From assembly GCA_005772855.1 (NCBI GenBank), contig SXIK01000010.1:1-64000 (forward strand): DNA of 64,000 nt, written 5' to 3'. Each line of letters starts with the position of its first letter. Within the stretch, counting starts at the first letter, position 1. Under the pieces are notes generated by a model. It did no database searches, was not told the origin of the DNA, and worked only from the letters and a program-made list of their open reading frames with translations. The stretch is from Planctomycetia bacterium. GTDB lineage: Bacteria; Planctomycetota; UBA8108; SXIK01. Position numbers and translations under genes: made by a program. Positions 1,960 to 60,634 of this stretch are shown here, piece after piece.

Positions 1960-4573
1960 TCACTCGCAGGCTTCGTAGAACTCGCAGGTGAGCTGGGCCC
2001 CGGGACTGGAATCCGGACCAACCCCGCAGGGAAGGGGCGGAGGACCGGGGTCTACCGGAGCGACTACTGTCCCGAGGAACAGGTATCCGAGGACGTGAAT
2101 CGCGTCCGAGCAGTCGAGCCTGCCGTCGCCGTTCGCATCGGCGGCCTGAAGGCAAGGTGGCCGCCTGCCATCGGCGAAAAGGTACTCAAGCACGCAGAGA
2201 CCATCAGACACATCCAAATCTCCATCGGCGTTCGAGTCGCCGCGGTGGAAAGGAGTCGATTGGCACTCGTCTGGGACTCCGTCGTGGTCGCGGTCCTCGC
2301 TACGTGGCAGCCGCGTGTCATTGGACAGGAAGAGAATCTCGTCCCCCGCGTAACCGCTGACGAGGAGGTCGTGGCCTCCATCACCGTCGAGGTCACCCGC
2401 GACGATTTCCACGCCACTCCGACCGGCCGACCAGGGTGGAGGGGCGTGGAATCGACCGGCACTGTCGTTGAGGAACACCTGCACCGTGGAAACACTCACG
2501 TCGACCACGGCAACGTCGCTGCGGCCGTCCCGGTCCATGTCAGCGGCGACGAGGTTCAGTGGGGTGTAGCCAGCAGCCAGGGTACTGCGGGCACGGAACT
2601 CCCCATCGCCGTTGTTGAAGAGGACCTCGACGCGGTTGTTCCCGAAACGGATACCATCGCGCGGGATCGCTACAGCGAGGTCGTCATTCCCATCGCCGTC
2701 GAAATCGGACGTCGCCACGTCTGTGACCCGTAGAGAATCCAGGTGCCCTGTGAATGAAATCCGGAAAGGGGCGTCGAGGGTGCCGTCGCCGTGGTTGCGG
2801 TAAAGCCATATGCTGCCTCCCGTGTCGTCGGCCGTGGCTAAGTCGCTCAGGCCGTCACCGTCGAGATCGAGCGCGGCGAGAGCCATCGGTTCTTGTCCTC
2901 CCGGCAAAGAGTTCCATAGCCGGCCGAACTCCGCGTCGCCCAGGTTGAAAAGGATTTGCACTCGTCGCCCCTGCCCGTCCCCAAGCGCCAGGTCGAGGTC
3001 CGCGTCCCCATCCAAATCGACCGGCAAGAGCGCTGCGATCCAGCCAGAAGCCTGCAAACGTTCTGGCTTCGCGAAAGTGCCATTCCCCAGATTCCGGACG
3101 AAGGAGACGGTGTTCCCTTCCCCCAGGCCCGCGTGAAACGCAAATACGTCGGCAAAGGAATCGCCATCTACGTCGGCGACCGCGAGCCCGAAGGCCTCAA
3201 CTCCCAGACCGACTCTGAGCAGGCGCTCGAATTGGGACTCTCCATCCTTGCGGATGGCGGTACATGTTTACCCCGTCGCCGCTCAAGGCCGCCACGTCGA
3301 GATCTCCCTCACCATCGAGATCGCCCAGGGCGATTCCACGCACCCTGAACCCTGGGATGCTCTGCGCCGCGCGGATCACTCCCGGCGCTTCTGACAGATA
3401 GATGCTCGTGTGCTGAGAAGTCCCGACTGCCAGGTCAACATTCCCATCAGCATCCCAATCGCCCGCCGCAATGCGGACCGGATCTCCATCGGTTCGGAGC
3501 GACAGGATCTCAGTGAGCTGCTCGGCACGGTCATTCAAGCGGAGAACAACTACGGGAGCGTCTCCTTGTGCGACCGCCAGATCGAGTAGCTCATCACCAT
3601 CGAAGTCGGCGAGCTCGCCGGAGTGTGCTGTGTGCTTTCGGGCAAGCACCTGAGAGAGACGAAGATCCCCACCTGCTTGGTTCCAGAGGACGGCGATCGC
3701 TGGCGGGTTGCCTCCGAGTACGCAGAGATCGGTGGCTTGGTCGCCGTCGAGATCAGCGGCATAGATATGACGGGGTGCTGCAGGGGACGGAAGCAGGACC
3801 GGCTGCGCGAAGCTGAACGCTTCGTCCGCCACGTAGAGAGAGATGACCTCGTCGGCGGTTCCCCCCCCCGTCGCCAGGTCCGGTCGTCCATCGCCGTTGA
3901 GGTCGGCCACTGCAAGCGCAAAGAGCTCCGAGTGCCCCCCGAGCTTCCCAACGACCTTAAGCCGGCCGCTTCCCCGGTTCTCGATCAAGGAAATCCCGTT
4001 CGAAGCGTAGAGGAGGACGGCAATATCGAGATCGCCGTCGCCGTCGAGATCCGCGGGGACGGCCCGCGTGGGGGGGTTCGCAAGAGCCAGCGTCGCGCCG
4101 GGCTTGAAGCTCCCGGACTGGTCCTGTAGGACAGGCGTGATCCCACCCTCAGCAGGTGTCCCCGGTGGCGGGCGTCCTGAGATGATGAGATCCGGTTTCA
4201 AGTCTCCATCTAGATCGCCGACCGCCACAGCTTCCCCTCCAGCCACCTCCAGGGTCTTCTCCTCGAAGTGCATCCCGAGGTCACGCTGGAGAAAGACCTT
4301 GAAACTGCCCACCTGGTACGTCAAACCCACCAGGTCCGAGCGTCCATCCCCGTTGATGTCCGTGGAGAGGAATTCGGACAGGGGCGGGAGAGCCATCGGC
4401 CCCTTCATTCGAAAGCTGCGCGCCAGATCCTCGCTGTCGGGGATCCCGTTGCCGTTGCAATCTGCACCGTCCGCTCGTGTAGAGCTACCGCAGAGGATGA
4501 TGAGAAGAATTGCCGAGATGCCGGGCAGCGCCGTGTATTCAACCAGCCCGGATAGCCCAACGAGTAAGTTCAT
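1960..4573 (-). CDS. Secreted FG-GAP/VCBS repeat protein with dockerin-like C-terminus, interrupted by a frameshift
   Basis: The start at 4573 is set by a strong GGGGAGG site five bases upstream and gives MNLLVGLSGLVEYTALPG, a signal peptide. The body is a run of FG-GAP/VCBS blade repeats, each with a D-x-D-G-D-x-x-x-D-L/V calcium-loop signature (for example DINGDGRSDL, DLDGDLKPDL, DMDRDGRSDV). The C-terminus is a dockerin-like double loop (RGDSNADGDLDVSD and DANGDGRLDCSDA) ending in FYEACE. The reading frame changes between about 3250 and 3270: upstream the protein ends in noise after GDGVNMYR, and downstream a continuous repeat frame runs to the stop at 1960. With one base corrected the protein would be about 870 residues. 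A sequencing error and a real recent mutation are both possible. It is probably exported and cell-surface attached; the ligand is unknown. Confidence 0.75.
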
Positions 4574-21661: not shown

Positions 21662-22141
21662 ATGCGCGTAACTCAGACAAGCCTGAAGGCGCTCAGCTCC
21701 GGGTGGGCGAGGTTTCTTCTTTGGTACGAAGGCCACAAGGTCCTCACGCTGAGCATGCTCAACGCGCTGACGCTCTTCGTCTTTGCCTCTCTCGTTTTCA
21801 TTGTCTGGGCGACCCAGCCGCGCGAGTCTCAGGCGCTCGAGAATGCAAGATCCAGTAAGTCCCCGGTGGTCGAATCGCGCAGGGCGCCACCCACACTCGC
21901 CGAGAAGACTCGACCCGGGGTCGATCCCGTGGCCGCCACTGCCTCATCCGCCGCAGCAGAAGACCCACAAGCCTCACAACGAATCGGGGTAAGAGAATAT
22001 CAGGTCGAGGTGCGTCGGGCCCGGAGATTCTTCGCGCAGGCGGAGGCCCCACCCGTGACCGGAACGAGGAACGTTACCGAGCCAGAAGATGAAGAGAGTG
22101 AGCGAGGGGACGAGCCCGAGTCGCTCGCCCCACGCGACTGA
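21662..22141 (+). CDS. Single-pass membrane protein, function unknown
   Basis: The protein has about 159 residues from ATG 21662. A short cytoplasmic part is followed by one hydrophobic segment (about residues 30-50, LTLFVFASLVFIVWA) and then a long polar, Pro/Ala/Glu-rich tail. No catalytic or binding motif is visible. The start is placed here because the upstream extension translates the GC-rich hairpin and has no biological look. Its stop codon lies within the first bases of the palindromic repeat at 22138. Confidence 0.55.
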   Translation: MRVTQTSLKALSSGWARFLLWYEGHKVLTLSMLNALTLFVFASLVFIVWATQPRESQALENARSSKSPVVESRRAPPTLAEKTRPGVDPVAATASSAAAEDPQASQRIGVREYQVEVRRARRFFAQAEAPPVTGTRNVTEPEDEESERGDEPESLAPRD

Positions 22142-22260
22142 GTATCGCCCACCGCAAGTTAGTGCCTGAAAGTACAGCCCTTGCGCGGTACTTACCACGG
22201 GTGTGAGGGGGGAACGTGGCCCCCTCAAATGTACCGGACGCCTCCAGCGCAGATAGTGAC
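22138..22260 (+). repeat. MITE-like palindromic element, copy 1
   Basis: From CTGAGTATCGCCCACCGCAA onward this matches the reverse complement of 54889-55017 at about four bases in five by eye. Shared blocks include AAGTTAGTGCCTGAAA, TACAGC, GCGGTACT, ACGTGGCCCCCTCAA (GCGTGGCCCCC in the other copy) and a GCCTCCAG right arm. The outer arms are complementary, so the whole can fold as one hairpin. It carries no coding capacity. Confidence 0.75.
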
Positions 22261-51576: not shown

Positions 51577-51618
51577 AAAAAAACGTCGGGGACCAGCCTC
51601 GTTGCTGATCCCCGACGT
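51577..51618 (-). terminator. Rho-independent terminator of the cysteine-rich protein gene
   Basis: On the minus strand ACGTCGGGGA (plus 51609-51618) pairs perfectly with TCCCCGACGT (plus 51583-51592) and is followed by seven T residues. It lies 29 bases beyond the stop of the gene ending at 51648. Confidence 0.9.
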
Positions 51619-51647
51619 CTCATCGAGACAGACGTGCGAGTAAGTGC

Positions 51648-54404
51648 TTACTCGCAGATCATGTCATCCGCCGTCGGGTCCTGACCCGACGAGCTCGGCT
51701 CGGGCAGCGGGGCGCCGCCCAGGAAGAGCCTGATCAGGGTCGTGACCGCGTCGGAGACATCGACCTGAGCATCGTCGTTCGCGTCTGCCGCATCCAGGCA
51801 AGAGAGGAAACCCTCCCCCTGGAAAAGGAATCGGAGCGTGCTGAGCGCATCAGAGATGTCCACCACGTGGTCGCTGTTCGAGTCGCCGCGGATAAAGTCC
51901 GGCAATCCACGCGTCAAGGCCAAAGTCTCCTGCTTGCAGTGTTCGGACAGACGATCCTGGCAGTGGGCCAGGAATTCCCTCGCCTTCTCAGCGCAGTCTT
52001 CAGGCTTGCCGCCTTCCTCGACGCAGCGCGCCTCGAACCGCTTCGCGGCGGCTTCGCAATCGAAGTCGCACGGCTTCGGATCGGGAGTCGCGCAACGCTT
52101 GCGGCACGCGGCGAGGAACTCCTCGACGCGCGCGGCACACTCGACGTCGCTTCCGCCAGCGGCAACGCACTCCTCCTTGACCTTGGCGGCGGCGTTGCCG
52201 CAACGCTCGGCGCAGGTCGGGGGCTCCGGCGGCTCGTGGCCATCACCACACTTCTTCAGGCAGCCTTCGAGGAACTCGTTGACTGCGCGACGGCACTTGC
52301 GGGCAGCCTCAGCCTTGCACTTCTCGGGGTCGTTGCCGGCCTCGACGCAGGCCTTGATCTCCTCCTCGAGGCGATCCAGGCAGCGCGCGAACCTTTCACG
52401 AGCCGCATGAACACAACGCTCCTTGCACGGCTCGGGCCGCGGTGGACAATTCTCGAGGCACTCCTTCAAGACCTCGATGGCCTTGTGACGGCACTCCCGC
52501 GGAGTGCCGCCTGCCTCGGTGCATTCGGCAAAGACGCGGTGAGCGACTCGCACGCAACGAACCGCGCACGGCGGACGGCCGTCGTCACAACGGTCGGTGC
52601 ACTCGTTGTAAAGGACACGGGCCTTGTGGGCACACTCCTGTGGATCGTTGCCAGCCTCGAGGCACTCCTCGCGGAAGGCGCGGGCCTTCACGGTGCAGAT
52701 GACCACGCACGGGTAGGGCGGTGGGGCCGGCTCGGCGCAGCCCTCGGCGCAGGCCTTCAAGGCCTCCTGACCCTTCGCGGCGCATTCCCTTTCCGTCCCG
52801 CCAGCCTCGCGACACTCGGCAACGACCTTGCGGGCGAAGTGAGTGCAGCGCTCCTTGCAATTCGGCGGATCGGGAATCTCACAGTGCTGACGGCAGTCGC
52901 GCAGGAAGTGGCGGGCGCGCTCGTGGCAGGCAGCCGGATCCGCGTTCGGATGATCCTGGAGGCACTTCTCGAGCAGCTCCTTGGCAGCCCTCTCGCAGCG
53001 CTCCGCGCAGTTCGGCGGGGGCGGGCTGTCGCAACGATCGAGGCATTCCTCCAGGACTTCCTCGGCTTTCGCACGACACCTCACGGGATCACCGCCGTTC
53101 GCCACGCACTCCTCGGCAAATCTCCGGGCGTGCTCCTTGCAGCGCTGTTCACAGCTCGGCGGGGGAGGCGGCGGGTCGTTGCACTGGTTCAAACACTCTT
53201 CCAGGAAAGCCTGCGCCTTCGCGGTGCATTCCGCGTCGGTAGCGCCAGCGGCGCTGCACTTCGCATGGAGCTCACGCGCCGCGCGCTTGCAGCGCTCGGC
53301 GCAGGTGGGCTCTTCGGGGGGCTGATCGCAGCGGTGGAGGCATTCCTCGGCAAACGCATCGGCCTTGCCCTGACACTCGGCCGGATCGCCGTTATTGGCG
53401 AGGCACTTCTCGAGCAGATCCATGGAGGCGTGCTTGCAACGATCCGCACAGCTCGGCGGGGGCGTCGGCTCGCAGCCGGCCAGGCAGCGCTTGAGGAGCT
53501 CTCCCGCCCTGGCTTCGCAGTTCTCGCCGCCTGCGGCCGTACACTCATTGAAGAAACTCCGTGCTCTCTGACCACAGGCCACCTCGCAGCTGGGGGGCGG
53601 CGGAGCCGGCTCGCACCTGGGCAAGCATTCCCTGAGCGTCGTCTCAAAGACGGCCTGGCAGCGCTCGGGGCCGCCTCCACCTGCCGCGCACTTGTGGCGC
53701 GCTTCTTCGGCGATCCGGAGACACAGCGTCTTGCAGTCGCCCGGAGGAGGCGGTTCGCAGCCCCTGAGGCAGGCCACCAGCGCTTCCTTGGCCTTGATTT
53801 TACACCTTCCGGGGTCTCCACCCTCTGCAAGGCAACGGCGCTTGAGCTCCTCTGCCTTGCGGGCGCAGGCCTCTTCGCAGCTCACTGGAGGCGGAGGAGG
53901 GGGCTGACAGCCGGGCAGACAGACCTGAAGGGCCTCCCTGGCGATGAGCGCGCAGCGCTCCGGGGAACCACCTTCTCGGGTGCAAGCAGCCGAGATCTCC
54001 AACGCCTTGGCCTTGCACCGCTCCTCGCAGGTAGGCTCCGGAGGTGGGGGGGGCGGGCACTTCTCCTTGCAGGCCATGATAGCAACCTCGAAGGCGTGCT
54101 GGCACTCCTCGGTGCTCCCATGAGCCTCTGCACAGGCGTGCAGAGCCTCTTTGGCCTCGCGGAAGCAAGCATCCAGGCACGGAAGCGGCGGGGGCACGGG
54201 ATCAACCTGCAAGCATCGCTTGAGAAACGCCTCGCGCATCGCTGCGCAATCAGCGTCACTCCCACCGAGCAACTTGCACTTGTCAAAAACCTCCTGGGCA
54301 ATTTGCCGGCATCGATCGGCATCGAGGCGGACCTCGTCGGCTTGGAGCTTGATACACAAGCCCATCGAAAAGAAGAAAAACAAACACAATAGTCGGAATC
54401 GCAT
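51648..54404 (-). CDS. Secreted protein of sixteen six-cysteine helical repeats with dockerin-like C-terminus
   Basis: The protein has 918 residues. A signal peptide (LLCLFFFFSMGLCIKLQADE) leads to about sixteen tandem repeats of 45-50 residues, each with the pattern C-x3-C-x10-C-x8/9-C-x10-C-x3-C in two charged helices, joined by Pro-rich linkers (PPPPPP, PPPPS). An example is CEERCKAKALEISAAC and then GGSPERC. The twin C-x3-C pairs would staple each hairpin by disulfides. The C-terminus is a dockerin-like calcium domain (RGDSNSDHVVDISDAL, DANDDAQVDVSDAV). GGAGGT ahead of the ATG at 54404 fixes the start, discarding a 79-codon upstream extension. A strong terminator follows. It is probably a rigid extracellular rod or binder. 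I know no named family with this repeat. Confidence 0.82.
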   Translation of the reverse strand: MRFRLLCLFFFFSMGLCIKLQADEVRLDADRCRQIAQEVFDKCKLLGGSDADCAAMREAFLKRCLQVDPVPPPLPCLDACFREAKEALHACAEAHGSTEECQHAFEVAIMACKEKCPPPPPPEPTCEERCKAKALEISAACTREGGSPERCALIAREALQVCLPGCQPPPPPPVSCEEACARKAEELKRRCLAEGGDPGRCKIKAKEALVACLRGCEPPPPGDCKTLCLRIAEEARHKCAAGGGGPERCQAVFETTLRECLPRCEPAPPPPSCEVACGQRARSFFNECTAAGGENCEARAGELLKRCLAGCEPTPPPSCADRCKHASMDLLEKCLANNGDPAECQGKADAFAEECLHRCDQPPEEPTCAERCKRAARELHAKCSAAGATDAECTAKAQAFLEECLNQCNDPPPPPPSCEQRCKEHARRFAEECVANGGDPVRCRAKAEEVLEECLDRCDSPPPPNCAERCERAAKELLEKCLQDHPNADPAACHERARHFLRDCRQHCEIPDPPNCKERCTHFARKVVAECREAGGTERECAAKGQEALKACAEGCAEPAPPPYPCVVICTVKARAFREECLEAGNDPQECAHKARVLYNECTDRCDDGRPPCAVRCVRVAHRVFAECTEAGGTPRECRHKAIEVLKECLENCPPRPEPCKERCVHAARERFARCLDRLEEEIKACVEAGNDPEKCKAEAARKCRRAVNEFLEGCLKKCGDGHEPPEPPTCAERCGNAAAKVKEECVAAGGSDVECAARVEEFLAACRKRCATPDPKPCDFDCEAAAKRFEARCVEEGGKPEDCAEKAREFLAHCQDRLSEHCKQETLALTRGLPDFIRGDSNSDHVVDISDALSTLRFLFQGEGFLSCLDAADANDDAQVDVSDAVTTLIRLFLGGAPLPEPSSSGQDPTADDMICE

Positions 54405-54888
54405 CGAAATTACCTCCTGCCTGCGTGAAAAGCCCCGAACTTCGTTGTCTTCCGTCCGGAACAACGGTGAAACGCGAAAGCTCGCAAGCGCCTCGCAGGC
54501 TTGCCTGAGATTACAGGTACTTTGGACTTCAGACCCGACCGGCGCCGCAGCGTCATGCGTCGCCAATTCAATTCCATTGGATGGGAACCCGAAGAAGGCG
54601 CAAGGTTGGGACAGACTAGAGCAGCCGAACTTGGCGCCCATTTCGGTAAGCCCTGAGTTGAGCAGAGCCTCAGTGCGATTCCCTCCGATCGGCTCCCGTC
54701 GAACCCCCTCGAGCCCCAGACTTGGCTCAGGAAGGTCTTCAAGGGCGCGAATGCCTGTCGAAGGGCTCGCGATCCAGACGTTATCTATGGTCCCGTGTGG
54801 GACACCCCCGGTTCAAGCGAAATCTTGGGGAATATTCATGACGGGGGGATTCTCGGCGGGGTGGCTCAGTGCCGCGCGCCATGAATAG
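54405..54888. other. Upstream region of the cysteine-rich gene, no gene seen
   Basis: This 484-bp stretch has open frames on both strands but none with a recognisable domain or ribosome binding site. It should hold the promoter of the gene at 51648-54404. Near 54793 CGTGTGGGACAC and near 54820 CGAAATCTTGGG are both shared with the 28400-28490 promoter region. Confidence 0.4.
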
Positions 54889-55017
54889 GTGCCTGAAATC
54901 TCCTGGAGGCGCGCGGTACTCTTGAGGGGGGCCACGCTACCCCCCTCCCACTCCCCTTGGCGAGTACCGCCCAGGAGCTGTATTTTCAGGCACTAACTTA
55001 CGGTGAGCGGTACTCAG
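54889..55017 (-). repeat. MITE-like palindromic element, copy 2
   Basis: The left end GTGCCTGAAATC...CTCCTGG...GCGGTACTC (54889-54921) is complementary to the right end GAGTACCGC...CCAGGAG...TTTTCAGGCAC (54962-54993), giving a 105-bp element that folds on itself. A further perfect hairpin GCGGTACT-C-AGTACCGC lies at 55007-55023. The whole matches 22138-22260 in reverse orientation. No coding capacity. Confidence 0.78.
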
Positions 55018-55098
55018 TACCGCCCCCTCCTCGGCGCCTCATGGCGTCGGGCAATTCCGGCAGACGCCTGTGCTGGAGGCCGGTGATCGCTCACACCC

Positions 55099-56262: not shown

Positions 56263-56488
56263 TCTAGTATCCTTCGCTTCCAGCCTCGACATGAAGGTCA
56301 CGGGAACTTAACCCCAAAGACAACTCTTGTCGACGCCAGAATCTCTTTCAAAGCCAGGGCCGCTTCGATATAGTGACCGGTTCGTGTGCAAGGAGTCTTG
56401 ACCGGCTCGAAAGAAGCCTGACGCGGCAGACTCCGTGTAGAAGGTGGGTCTATCGCTTTTGAGGTTCGCTTCGCCCGAGGAGACTTCC

Positions 56489-57433
56489 ATGGAGGTCACG
56501 TACTACGAAGATCCAGCCTGCATCTGGTGCTGGGCTTTTGAACCCGTGGCGACGAGGCTTGCTTTCGAATTCCGACAAACCATCAAACTCCGCCATGTGA
56601 TGGGTGGCCTTCGCGATCAGCCGCCAGTCGACGTCGATTTCACCGTGCGGCAGTGGCAGAAGGCGTCCGAAATTTCCGGGATGCCTTTCGACACAAGGAC
56701 CTGGCAGAGCCATGTGAATCAGACAACTTTCCCCGCATGCCGCGCCGTAAAGGGAGCCGCGCTGGTCAGCCCCGCCAGGGCCGCGAGACTCGCCCGTAGG
56801 CTCAGCGAAGCCTACTTCACCGAGCGAATCCCCATCGACAACCTCGATGCGATCCTTCAACTCGCTTCCGAGGTGGGGTTCAACCCCGACGTCCTGAAAG
56901 AAAACATCGCCAGCGGAAGAGCTGAGGAGTTCTTCACCCGGGACCGGCTCGAGGCAAGCCGGCATGGGTTCGGGTTCCCGACGACCATCTTCTCCACGAT
57001 CAAGACAGAATCAGCCGTCCTGCTGCAGGGTACAGTCGACTATGCAGTCATCTTGGCTGCTCTCAAGTCCCTGAACACCCCCAAGGCAAAGCGCCAACGG
57101 TTTCAAGACGTCCCCGAAGACTGGAAGGACCTCTTCAAGATTCACCCACGCCTCACCTCTACCGAGATTCAGCACGTTACTGGACTGAGCGCCGACCGCG
57201 TCGCCGCGCGAGCTTCCCAGCTTGGACTGCACTGGACTGGCATCTTCTACCAGCGCGAGAAAACGGATCACGACACTGCGAGGGCCGGCCTGGAGGCTCC
57301 ACCCAAACTTCCCGGCGAGCACGAGCCTTACGGCGACGAGCCCGCCAGCATCGGCCGGAAGTTGGAGGAGACGGACACGCTCTCGGGAGACCTCGACACG
57401 GAGGGCATCCGCGAGACCAGCGCCGCAGACTGA
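56489..57433 (+). CDS. DsbA-family (FrnE-like) thioredoxin-fold protein
   Basis: The protein has about 314 residues from ATG 56489, which has GAGGAGA at good spacing. It opens EVTYYEDPACIWCWAFEP with an intact C-x-x-C, then an inserted helical domain, then the cis-Pro region HGFGFPTTIFSTIK. This is the DsbA/FrnE pattern of cytosolic oxidoreductases; there is no signal peptide. The last about 90 residues include a helix-turn-helix-like part (TSTEIQHVTGLSADRVAARA) and a polar tail, which is unusual. It might be a stress or thiol-response protein. It is divergent from the PRPP synthetase gene. Confidence 0.82.
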   Translation: MEVTYYEDPACIWCWAFEPVATRLAFEFRQTIKLRHVMGGLRDQPPVDVDFTVRQWQKASEISGMPFDTRTWQSHVNQTTFPACRAVKGAALVSPARAARLARRLSEAYFTERIPIDNLDAILQLASEVGFNPDVLKENIASGRAEEFFTRDRLEASRHGFGFPTTIFSTIKTESAVLLQGTVDYAVILAALKSLNTPKAKRQRFQDVPEDWKDLFKIHPRLTSTEIQHVTGLSADRVAARASQLGLHWTGIFYQREKTDHDTARAGLEAPPKLPGEHEPYGDEPASIGRKLEETDTLSGDLDTEGIRETSAAD

Positions 57434-58870: not shown

Positions 58871-60634
58871 ATGAGACCCATCGCCGTCACCCTGGTCCTC
58901 GTCGTTTTCACTCTTCTCTCCCCCCCGGTCGCATACGCCGTCAAGATCCCTGTGGGCGATATCGCGATCGACCCCAACCCCGTCCTCGATCCGGGAAGGG
59001 AACCGCTCCAGTTCCGCCGGGGAGACGTTCGTGCCGACGGAAACATTGCTCTGAGCGACGCCATCACACTCCTGCGGCACCTCTTCTTCGGGGACCCGGC
59101 CACCCTCCCCTGCGCGGATGCGGCCGACACCGACGACGACGGTATCTTGACCATCGGCGACGCGGTCGCGATCTTGAGCCACCTCTACTCGGGTAGTAAA
59201 CAGATCCGTGGACCCGTCGTGGCGTGTGGAGCGGACCCCACGAACGATTTCCTGGGCTGCGACTCCTTCCCTGCCTGCATCGCAGATCCGGCCCCCTCCG
59301 ACGCCGAAAAAAGGCTCGACATGGCCTACCACTACGCTCCGGTCCACCACCAGGATGCCTCGGATTCGGGTTACCGCTACGACATGCTGGCCCGCATCGA
59401 CTTCAACGGGAACTGGGACATGGCGAGCAAGTGGGAAGCAGCCGCGACCATGGGGGTTCCGGCAGCGCACGTCTACTACAGCGTGGTCTCCACGGCGACC
59501 CACTGGTACCTCGTGTACGCCTTCTACCACCCTCGTGACTGGACCAATGAGAGCTTTGACCAGGAGCACGAGAACGACATGGAGGGGCTGCTCCTGGTGG
59601 TTTTCCGCGATGGAAGCAGGTACGGCAAGCTCGAGGCGGCCGTCACGGTGGCCCACCTTGATTTCTACAGCTATACGCCGGGGCCGACCCACCTGAGCGC
59701 TGGCGCGGAAGACCTCGACGGGAACCTGGGGCTCATCGACGGAAGCCATCCCCTCACCTACCAGGAAGCGAAGGGTCACGGGGTCTACGCCTACGGGGGA
59801 TCTCACACCGAAGACGGTGATGGGATTTGGTACTACCCTTCGCTGCCTTACCTCGGGCACGAGGAGGCGACACGGCCAGCCCTTCCGACACCTCAGAGCG
59901 GTGACACCAACCCGAAGGCCCACTACAAGCTCCTCGACATCTTCGAGGCAGGTGGTTTGTGGGATCGACGAGAAAACGCGGAGACCTTCCACAGCTTTGG
60001 CTCGTTCCGCGGAGACGACGGTGGAGAATGCGGGGATGGCGTGACGGTCACCTGCTCGGAGAACTCCCCACACCCGCCGTGGGGCTGGGACGACGTGAAT
60101 GACGGCCCGGTCTTCGCCGGCGAGCTTGCTTTCGACCCCGCCCACCTGGTCGGCCGGTACTTCCACGTAACGACGGCGTTTGCCAGGGACTACGAGCGCA
60201 ATCCCTATGCAGTCGAGATTGTCCTGGAGGAGCTCACGGTGCTCTCGAATCAGGACCCCAGCGGGGATCGATCCGACCCCTACTTCAACCTGTACTTCGG
60301 GGACGGCGTGGGCGAAGAGACCCATGGGGGCTACGGTGACGGGATCGTGGACGGCGACAGCGGCGCACAAGTCTCCTGGGTCTTGTGGGATCCTCCCATG
60401 AGCACCCGAATCAACCTCGCGACCGCCATGCCGCGCAATCGCTTCTACACGATCAAGTCAACGGTCCCCACCTTCCGGATCCGCGTCATGGACTGGGACA
60501 ACGGGAGCGGCGACGAGTGGCTCATGAGCCCGGCGCAACCGTACGCGGAAGAGCGCACGAGCGGTAGCTTCACCTACGAGTTCGGGCGCAGCCGCCTCAA
60601 GGTCCGCCTGACCGACGCGCCAGGCGGGCGTTGA
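58871..60634 (+). CDS. Secreted protein with N-terminal dockerin-like domain, function unknown
   Basis: The protein has about 587 residues. GAAGGAG before the ATG at 58871 fixes the start, discarding a long shadow extension. A signal peptide (VTLVLVVFTLLSPPVAYA) is followed by a dockerin-like domain at about 50-125 (RRGDVRADGNIALSDAITLL, DTDDDGILTIGDAV), here at the N-terminus whereas the other two proteins in the window carry it at the C-terminus. The remaining about 440 residues are acidic and rich in Trp, Tyr and His, with several Asp-rich turns (YAPVHHQDASDSGYRYDML, WYYPSLPYLGHEE). I do not recognise a catalytic family; a metal-dependent hydrolase or carbohydrate-binding protein is possible. 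It is convergent with the lipoprotein gene. Confidence 0.78.
   Translation: MRPIAVTLVLVVFTLLSPPVAYAVKIPVGDIAIDPNPVLDPGREPLQFRRGDVRADGNIALSDAITLLRHLFFGDPATLPCADAADTDDDGILTIGDAVAILSHLYSGSKQIRGPVVACGADPTNDFLGCDSFPACIADPAPSDAEKRLDMAYHYAPVHHQDASDSGYRYDMLARIDFNGNWDMASKWEAAATMGVPAAHVYYSVVSTATHWYLVYAFYHPRDWTNESFDQEHENDMEGLLLVVFRDGSRYGKLEAAVTVAHLDFYSYTPGPTHLSAGAEDLDGNLGLIDGSHPLTYQEAKGHGVYAYGGSHTEDGDGIWYYPSLPYLGHEEATRPALPTPQSGDTNPKAHYKLLDIFEAGGLWDRRENAETFHSFGSFRGDDGGECGDGVTVTCSENSPHPPWGWDDVNDGPVFAGELAFDPAHLVGRYFHVTTAFARDYERNPYAVEIVLEELTVLSNQDPSGDRSDPYFNLYFGDGVGEETHGGYGDGIVDGDSGAQVSWVLWDPPMSTRINLATAMPRNRFYTIKSTVPTFRIRVMDWDNGSGDEWLMSPAQPYAEERTSGSFTYEFGRSRLKVRLTDAPGGR

Follow-up and report, generated by a model that had tools for sequence, protein, structure and literature searches.

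An exported protein of a planctomycete with a tandem array of predicted cysteine-laddered helical hairpins

The minus-strand gene at 51648-54404 of the window (the whole 64,000-nucleotide stretch of DNA analyzed here) encodes a protein that is dominated by regularly spaced cysteines. What is the repeated unit, how might it fold, and what could so long a series of such units do outside a bacterial cell? An earlier note, made from the DNA letters, had proposed an array of disulfide-stapled hairpins that forms a rigid rod. We addressed these questions with a wholly computational analysis, in which the relatives come mostly from metagenome bins.

Gene layout and the repeat unit

The gene begins with an ATG at 54404, and its product is ordered as a signal peptide (aa 1-22), sixteen Cys units (aa 32-823) and a C-terminal domain (aa 836-917). 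The features assigned to the locus are as follows:

51648-54404 (-): hairpin-array gene, 918 aa with 100 Cys; synteny conserved in other genomes
54339-54404 (-): Sec-type signal peptide, aa 1-22, MRFRLLCLFFFFSMGLCIKLQA, read from sequence
54213-54311 (-): unit 1, four-Cys N-terminal cap CX10CX9CX10C without the outer pair C1/C6; cap common to orthologs and paralog
52446-54179 (-): units 2-13, twelve six-Cys hairpins and Pro-rich linkers; AlphaFold model of units 8-9
52248-52427 (-): unit 14, eight-Cys long hairpin, probable four-rung ladder; kept in four orthologs, helices predicted
52092-52214 (-): unit 15, six-Cys hairpin
51936-52070 (-): unit 16, last hairpin, with a C5-x7-C6 ending kept in orthologs
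51654-51899 (-): C-terminal dockerin-fold domain, aa 836-917, two DxNxD...D loops; Foldseek, Pfam below cut-off
51580-51621 (-): intrinsic terminator hairpin followed by a T run, MFE -35.4 kcal/mol, z -5.2

Cleavage of the signal peptide is likely after LQA (residue 22), and comparable signal peptides are present in the orthologs. The signal peptide and the strong terminator had been proposed in the earlier note and were borne out. An 841-aa open reading frame antisense to the array (51867-54392(+)) was rejected as a gene and taken as a mirror of the GC-rich coding frame. Genes for alpha-glucan phosphorylase, PRPP synthase and methionine synthase recur beside the array gene and give no clue to its function. 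Upstream, an imperfect palindrome of about 150 bp (54865-55018) resembles a MITE or REP element and has roughly 20 copies in the genome, most of them at 80-94% identity and another of them within the window (22137-22247(-)); a distinct motif, about 33 bp long, lies at about 55020-55052 and occurs more than 15 times in the genome.

The standard unit, CX3CX10CX9CX10CX3C, is 41 residues long and has its GG turn at the center. As anticipated, sixteen tandem units were found: 13 fitted the strict pattern C-x3-C-x10-C-x(7-11)-C-x10-C-x3-C exactly, compared with an average of 0.008, and never more than 1, over 2000 shuffles of the residues. The six-Cys spacing described earlier holds for most of them and fails in three: unit 1 has four (C1 and C6 are absent), unit 14 has eight (one extra per helix), and unit 16 ends in C-x7-C. 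More than 90 Cys fall within the repeat region. The linkers between units, previously described as Pro-rich, span 6-11 residues, are 54% Pro and carry no repeated basic or other obvious cleavage motif. Beyond the Cys, the GG turn, R4 and the core-type Ala/Leu positions, nothing is widely shared among units, and no tandem repeat was detected at the DNA level across the array because the units are too diverged. Units are acidic on average, with a net charge per unit of -1.4 to -8.3 that spreads widely between arrays; Met is scarce in the arrays, and P0001 contains no Trp.

Variation in the Cys themselves was informative. All six occupied the model positions in 181 of 213 profile matches, C1 and C6 were jointly absent in nine and C3 and C4 in two, these Cys-loss variants representing few independent events. 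No complete unit that had lost one Cys alone was seen among the 213 matches; the remaining patterns were cut-off or misaligned matches, eight-Cys units, and units with C6 shifted by one to four residues.

Predicted fold, array shape and C-terminal domain

The structure of two consecutive repeats, which the earlier note had suggested predicting, was modeled with AlphaFold for units 8-9 from 56 alignment rows of unit pairs (the structure models used repeat-derived alignments). The model contained two antiparallel hairpins at a mean pLDDT of 94.4, with helices at 4-21, 26-45, 54-71 and 76-94 and each Cys within a helix. Hairpins, including a long one for unit 14, were also predicted for the C-terminal part from five ortholog sequences (pTM 0.28). 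In the standard unit, Cys positions 1 and 41, 5 and 37, and 16 and 26 each sum to 42 (i+j=42, antiparallel). Among the 15 possible pairings, 1-6/2-5/3-4 alone put all Cbeta pairs at 3.8 Å on two straight antiparallel helices, a consistency test in which five parameters were fitted to three distances. Because Cys are lost and gained in pairs, the register is constant at i+j=42, and this is the sole pairing that satisfies the two-helix geometry, these data strongly suggest that each unit comprises two antiparallel helices cross-linked C1-C6, C2-C5 and C3-C4, with two rungs in the cap and four in unit 14. Taking this indirect evidence for pairing together with the confident two-unit model, the laddered-hairpin fold is very likely, and the earlier proposal of a disulfide-stapled alpha hairpin in each unit is retained.

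The proposed rod fared differently. Despite a pLDDT of 94, the pTM of the two-unit model was only 0.53, and this value and that of the C-terminal part predict no set arrangement of one unit relative to the next. The two ends of the chain emerge at one end of the hairpin; units would therefore stick out sideways, and the linkers rather than the helices would carry the length. As modeled, the array has the form of a comb, or of beads strung on polyproline, instead of a rigid rod, with an extended length (linkers plus hairpin feet) roughly estimated at about 50 nm.

The dockerin-like character attributed to the C-terminus found support in structure comparison. Foldseek matched the domain to the solved dockerins 4uyp_B and 4uyq_B with a probability of 1.00 and to 3ul4_B with 0.94 (target TM 0.71-0.79), albeit at weak E-values of 0.3 or higher, and the domain contains two putative Ca-binding loop-helix repeats, GDSNSDHVVDISD and DANDDAQVDVSD. 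Dockerin_1 (PF00404) reached E 9e-4 and 19.8 bits on the C-terminal 82 aa, below the cut-off of 22.9. About 150 related dockerin-like C-terminal domains are present in the genome, where the domain may serve more generally as a tag for sorting or anchoring. A sister domain in the window (1963-3057(-)) follows FG-GAP repeats and scores 26.5 bits against the same cut-off; another dockerin-like domain lies at 59009-59260(+). In contrast to this abundance, only two cohesin-like domains, in the proteins at C40:70394 and C192:17352, were detectable in the genome. A protein with both cohesin-like and dockerin-like domains (L009:5743-6774(-)) is encoded directly downstream of a second hairpin array; the C40 cohesin is incomplete and scores under the cut-off. 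Cohesin-dockerin assemblies ("planctosome") have been proposed for freshwater Planctomycetes (PMC6461901).

Orthologs, distribution and known families

The second array of the genome (about C40:70824-72734, 16 kb away) has eight six-Cys units, a four-Cys unit at each end and a dockerin-like domain. Orthologs in four other genomes of the order (G314, G298, G306 and G064) retain the eight-Cys unit and the CX7C last unit, and those with a complete gene also have the four-Cys cap. Neighbors are shared as well: alpha-glucan phosphorylase in G298 and G064, and PRPP synthase and a thioredoxin-fold protein in G314. Units of the window array (P1) are collinear with those of its nearest ortholog (G314a) at 37-74% non-Cys identity, compared with 28% between units of one protein. 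None of 500 shuffled unit orders matched the nearest ortholog as well, and 3, 12 and 127 of 500 did so for more distant ones. A different architecture, in which an N-terminal sandwich-like domain precedes the array, was found in two relatives (L045 and L046).

In a sample of 392 Planctomycetota genomes, the genomes with the repeat all belonged to this order, in which it was detected in 5 of 10 genomes and 5 of 6 genera, and all repeat-negative genomes within the order came from one genus. The search that the earlier note had called for also led outside the order and beyond the phylum. A scan of GTDB genomes recovered arrays in one MAG of the Phycisphaerae and in others labeled Deltaproteobacteria or Myxococcales, and a profile search found the module in 23 of 377 Myxococcota genomes, where it forms four-Cys or six-Cys arrays or stands as a single hairpin. 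Since the phylum sample gave no further carrier around G392, the arrays of that MAG may be laterally acquired or misbinned. By a crude test, 27 of 33 Myxococcota hairpin proteins have a lipobox-like motif and would thus be mostly lipoproteins; hairpins of this phylum also occur beside Kazal domains or follistatin-like EGF domains or within a met-zincin. One such protein has three Kazal protease-inhibitor domains after its hairpin units (L080:1090-2232(+)), and another a single four-Cys hairpin inserted into a met-zincin (DUF4953) protein (L096:2167-5400(-)). No relative was found in viral contigs.

The repeat is covered by no family in Pfam or NCBIfam, the family libraries searched, and no description of it was found in the partly accessible literature, consistent with its having been called undescribed; no strong match to a named family emerged. 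When units were scanned singly, sub-threshold matches included thionin, CHCH, COX17 and hefutoxin, all known stapled alpha hairpins. A whole-protein match to the terpene synthase C-terminal family (PF19086, E 9e-7) was discarded as an artifact of composition and repetition, as no stretch passed alone. Searches with the two-unit model returned generic helical matches only (Foldseek E of at least 2, VIA Z below 6) and so speak neither for nor against a known fold. The best PDB profile matches, at E 0.034 and below the cut-off, were solved thionins over the common C-x9-C GG turn. In thionins this turn is closed by a disulfide.

Proposed role and comparison with known systems

As far as sequence can establish them, the export signal, unit architecture, conservation and dockerin-type C-terminus are secure features of this protein. 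To explain them, we lean slightly toward a stable extracellular spacer or display arm that is docked through its dockerin. The protein would be exported by Sec, and its hairpin disulfides would then form with the help of exported DsbA-type oxidases. Five DsbA-family domain matches are present in the genome, at least one in a protein with a signal-like N-terminus and CPYC; VKOR was not found there. A Thioredoxin_5/DSBA-like protein encoded near the array gene (56486-57430(+)), and also near it in G314, lacks a signal peptide and is probably cytoplasmic. The sixteen hairpins would fold independently into laddered units, the proline linkers presumably keeping them apart like comb teeth or beads, and the dockerin could hold the array in place through calcium-dependent binding to a partner on the surface or in the matrix that bears a cohesin. 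The product would be a very stable spacer or display arm, or a filament of the matrix, that holds helical surfaces side by side and away from the cell. On the separate parts of this explanation we are more guarded: a structural spacer or display role for the array seems evenly balanced, and docking to a cohesin is a tentative suggestion.

The unit-by-unit orthology with the nearest ortholog sits uneasily with a bare spacer, as the retention of individual unit identities appears to exceed what a spacer needs. It would be expected if each helical surface gripped a polymer, a mineral or a partner, the array gaining avidity as a multivalent adhesin, and the sandwich-like domain ahead of the array in some relatives points the same way. 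However, sharing among units is limited to the Cys, the turn, the core positions and R4, no binding face is obvious, Trp is missing from P0001, and net charge varies widely by array; we regard this alternative as rather unlikely. The abundance of Cys in the repeat region would also suit a store of metal or thiols, with Cys that remain reduced or switch between states and an array that buffers thiols or metal ions, and helical copper-storage proteins do use CX3C pairs on helices. Against this, Met is scarce, no metal-site residue besides Cys is conserved, Cys change only in cross-helix pairs in a fixed register, and the protein is exported by an organism with DsbA homologs, making storage improbable.

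Least probable of all is that the protein is cleaved to release its hairpins as single peptides, as are the antimicrobial and protease-inhibitor alpha-hairpinin polyproteins of plants, even though these precursors share the plan of the array protein (PMC7191063) and one myxobacterial relative joins hairpins to three Kazal domains. The Pro-rich linkers offer no obvious cleavage motif, docking through a dockerin on the last unit would hold that piece alone, unit order is preserved in the nearest ortholog, and the units are acidic on average.

More broadly, and with some doubt, the spacer arm proposed here could be one use of an unnamed bacterial superfamily of disulfide-laddered hairpins with two, three or four rungs in one register, a module of general use outside the cell in Planctomycetota and Myxococcota that arose independently of CHCH domains and alpha-hairpinins and is deployed here as a docked, comb-like surface filament. 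The repeat is compact and its code readable: cross-helix Cys pairs gained or lost set the number of rungs, and the register is nearly fixed. Both phyla are large and encode many uncharacterized surface proteins, and with the repeat missing from Pfam and NCBIfam, a family model would bring annotation to many proteins now listed as hypothetical. As a small Cys-stapled scaffold of natural origin, the unit may also be useful to protein designers, and this order's conserved array is a concrete cargo for the study of cohesin-dockerin pairs outside cellulosomes. With dockerin/cohesin systems the array protein has the dockerin-fold C-terminus in common; it differs in having a hairpin array as its cargo and in showing no sign of cellulosome function.

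Several eukaryotic hairpins resemble the unit in part. The likeness to twin-CX3C proteins drawn in the earlier note is loose: small Tim proteins have CX3C at both ends of a hairpin, but they are mitochondrial chaperones without the inner CX10C pair, and no small Tim Pfam family matched the array protein. The core, a twin CX10C plus an outer pair, is nearer to CHCH-type hairpins. Plant thionins (PF00321, including viscotoxins) share the helical hairpin and the C-x9-C GG turn, but are short peptides that contain beta strands and, outside the turn, pair their Cys differently, and their cut-off was not reached (best E 0.012-0.013; L105 at 16.6 bits versus 23.6). CHCH or twin CX9C proteins have two helices with nested disulfides like the array units, but are mitochondrial, two-runged and mostly single domains, whereas the array units combine a twin CX10C with an outer rung in a bacterial exported protein, in tandem with proline linkers. 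CHCH (PF06747) did not match the full protein and matched 1 of 46 single units (E 0.0014), COX17 (PF05051) scored weakly on single units (E 0.048), and in place of the paired C-x9-C of CHCH, parsed units have C-x10-C on both helices, a spacing that occurs in some CHCH members (PMC7909247). Alpha-hairpinins and vicilin-buried peptides are likewise Cys-stapled helical hairpins with nested pairing in tandem within a secreted precursor, which comprises a signal peptide, up to 12 hairpins and a short C-terminus (PMC7191063). Alpha-hairpinins differ in being plant peptides cut from their precursor with four Cys (two rungs), whereas two more conserved Cys flank the turn of the array unit, and no alpha-hairpinin matched in the PDB profile search. 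The module would work like a CHCH or alpha-hairpinin hairpin; membership in either family is unsupported, and convergence is as likely as descent.
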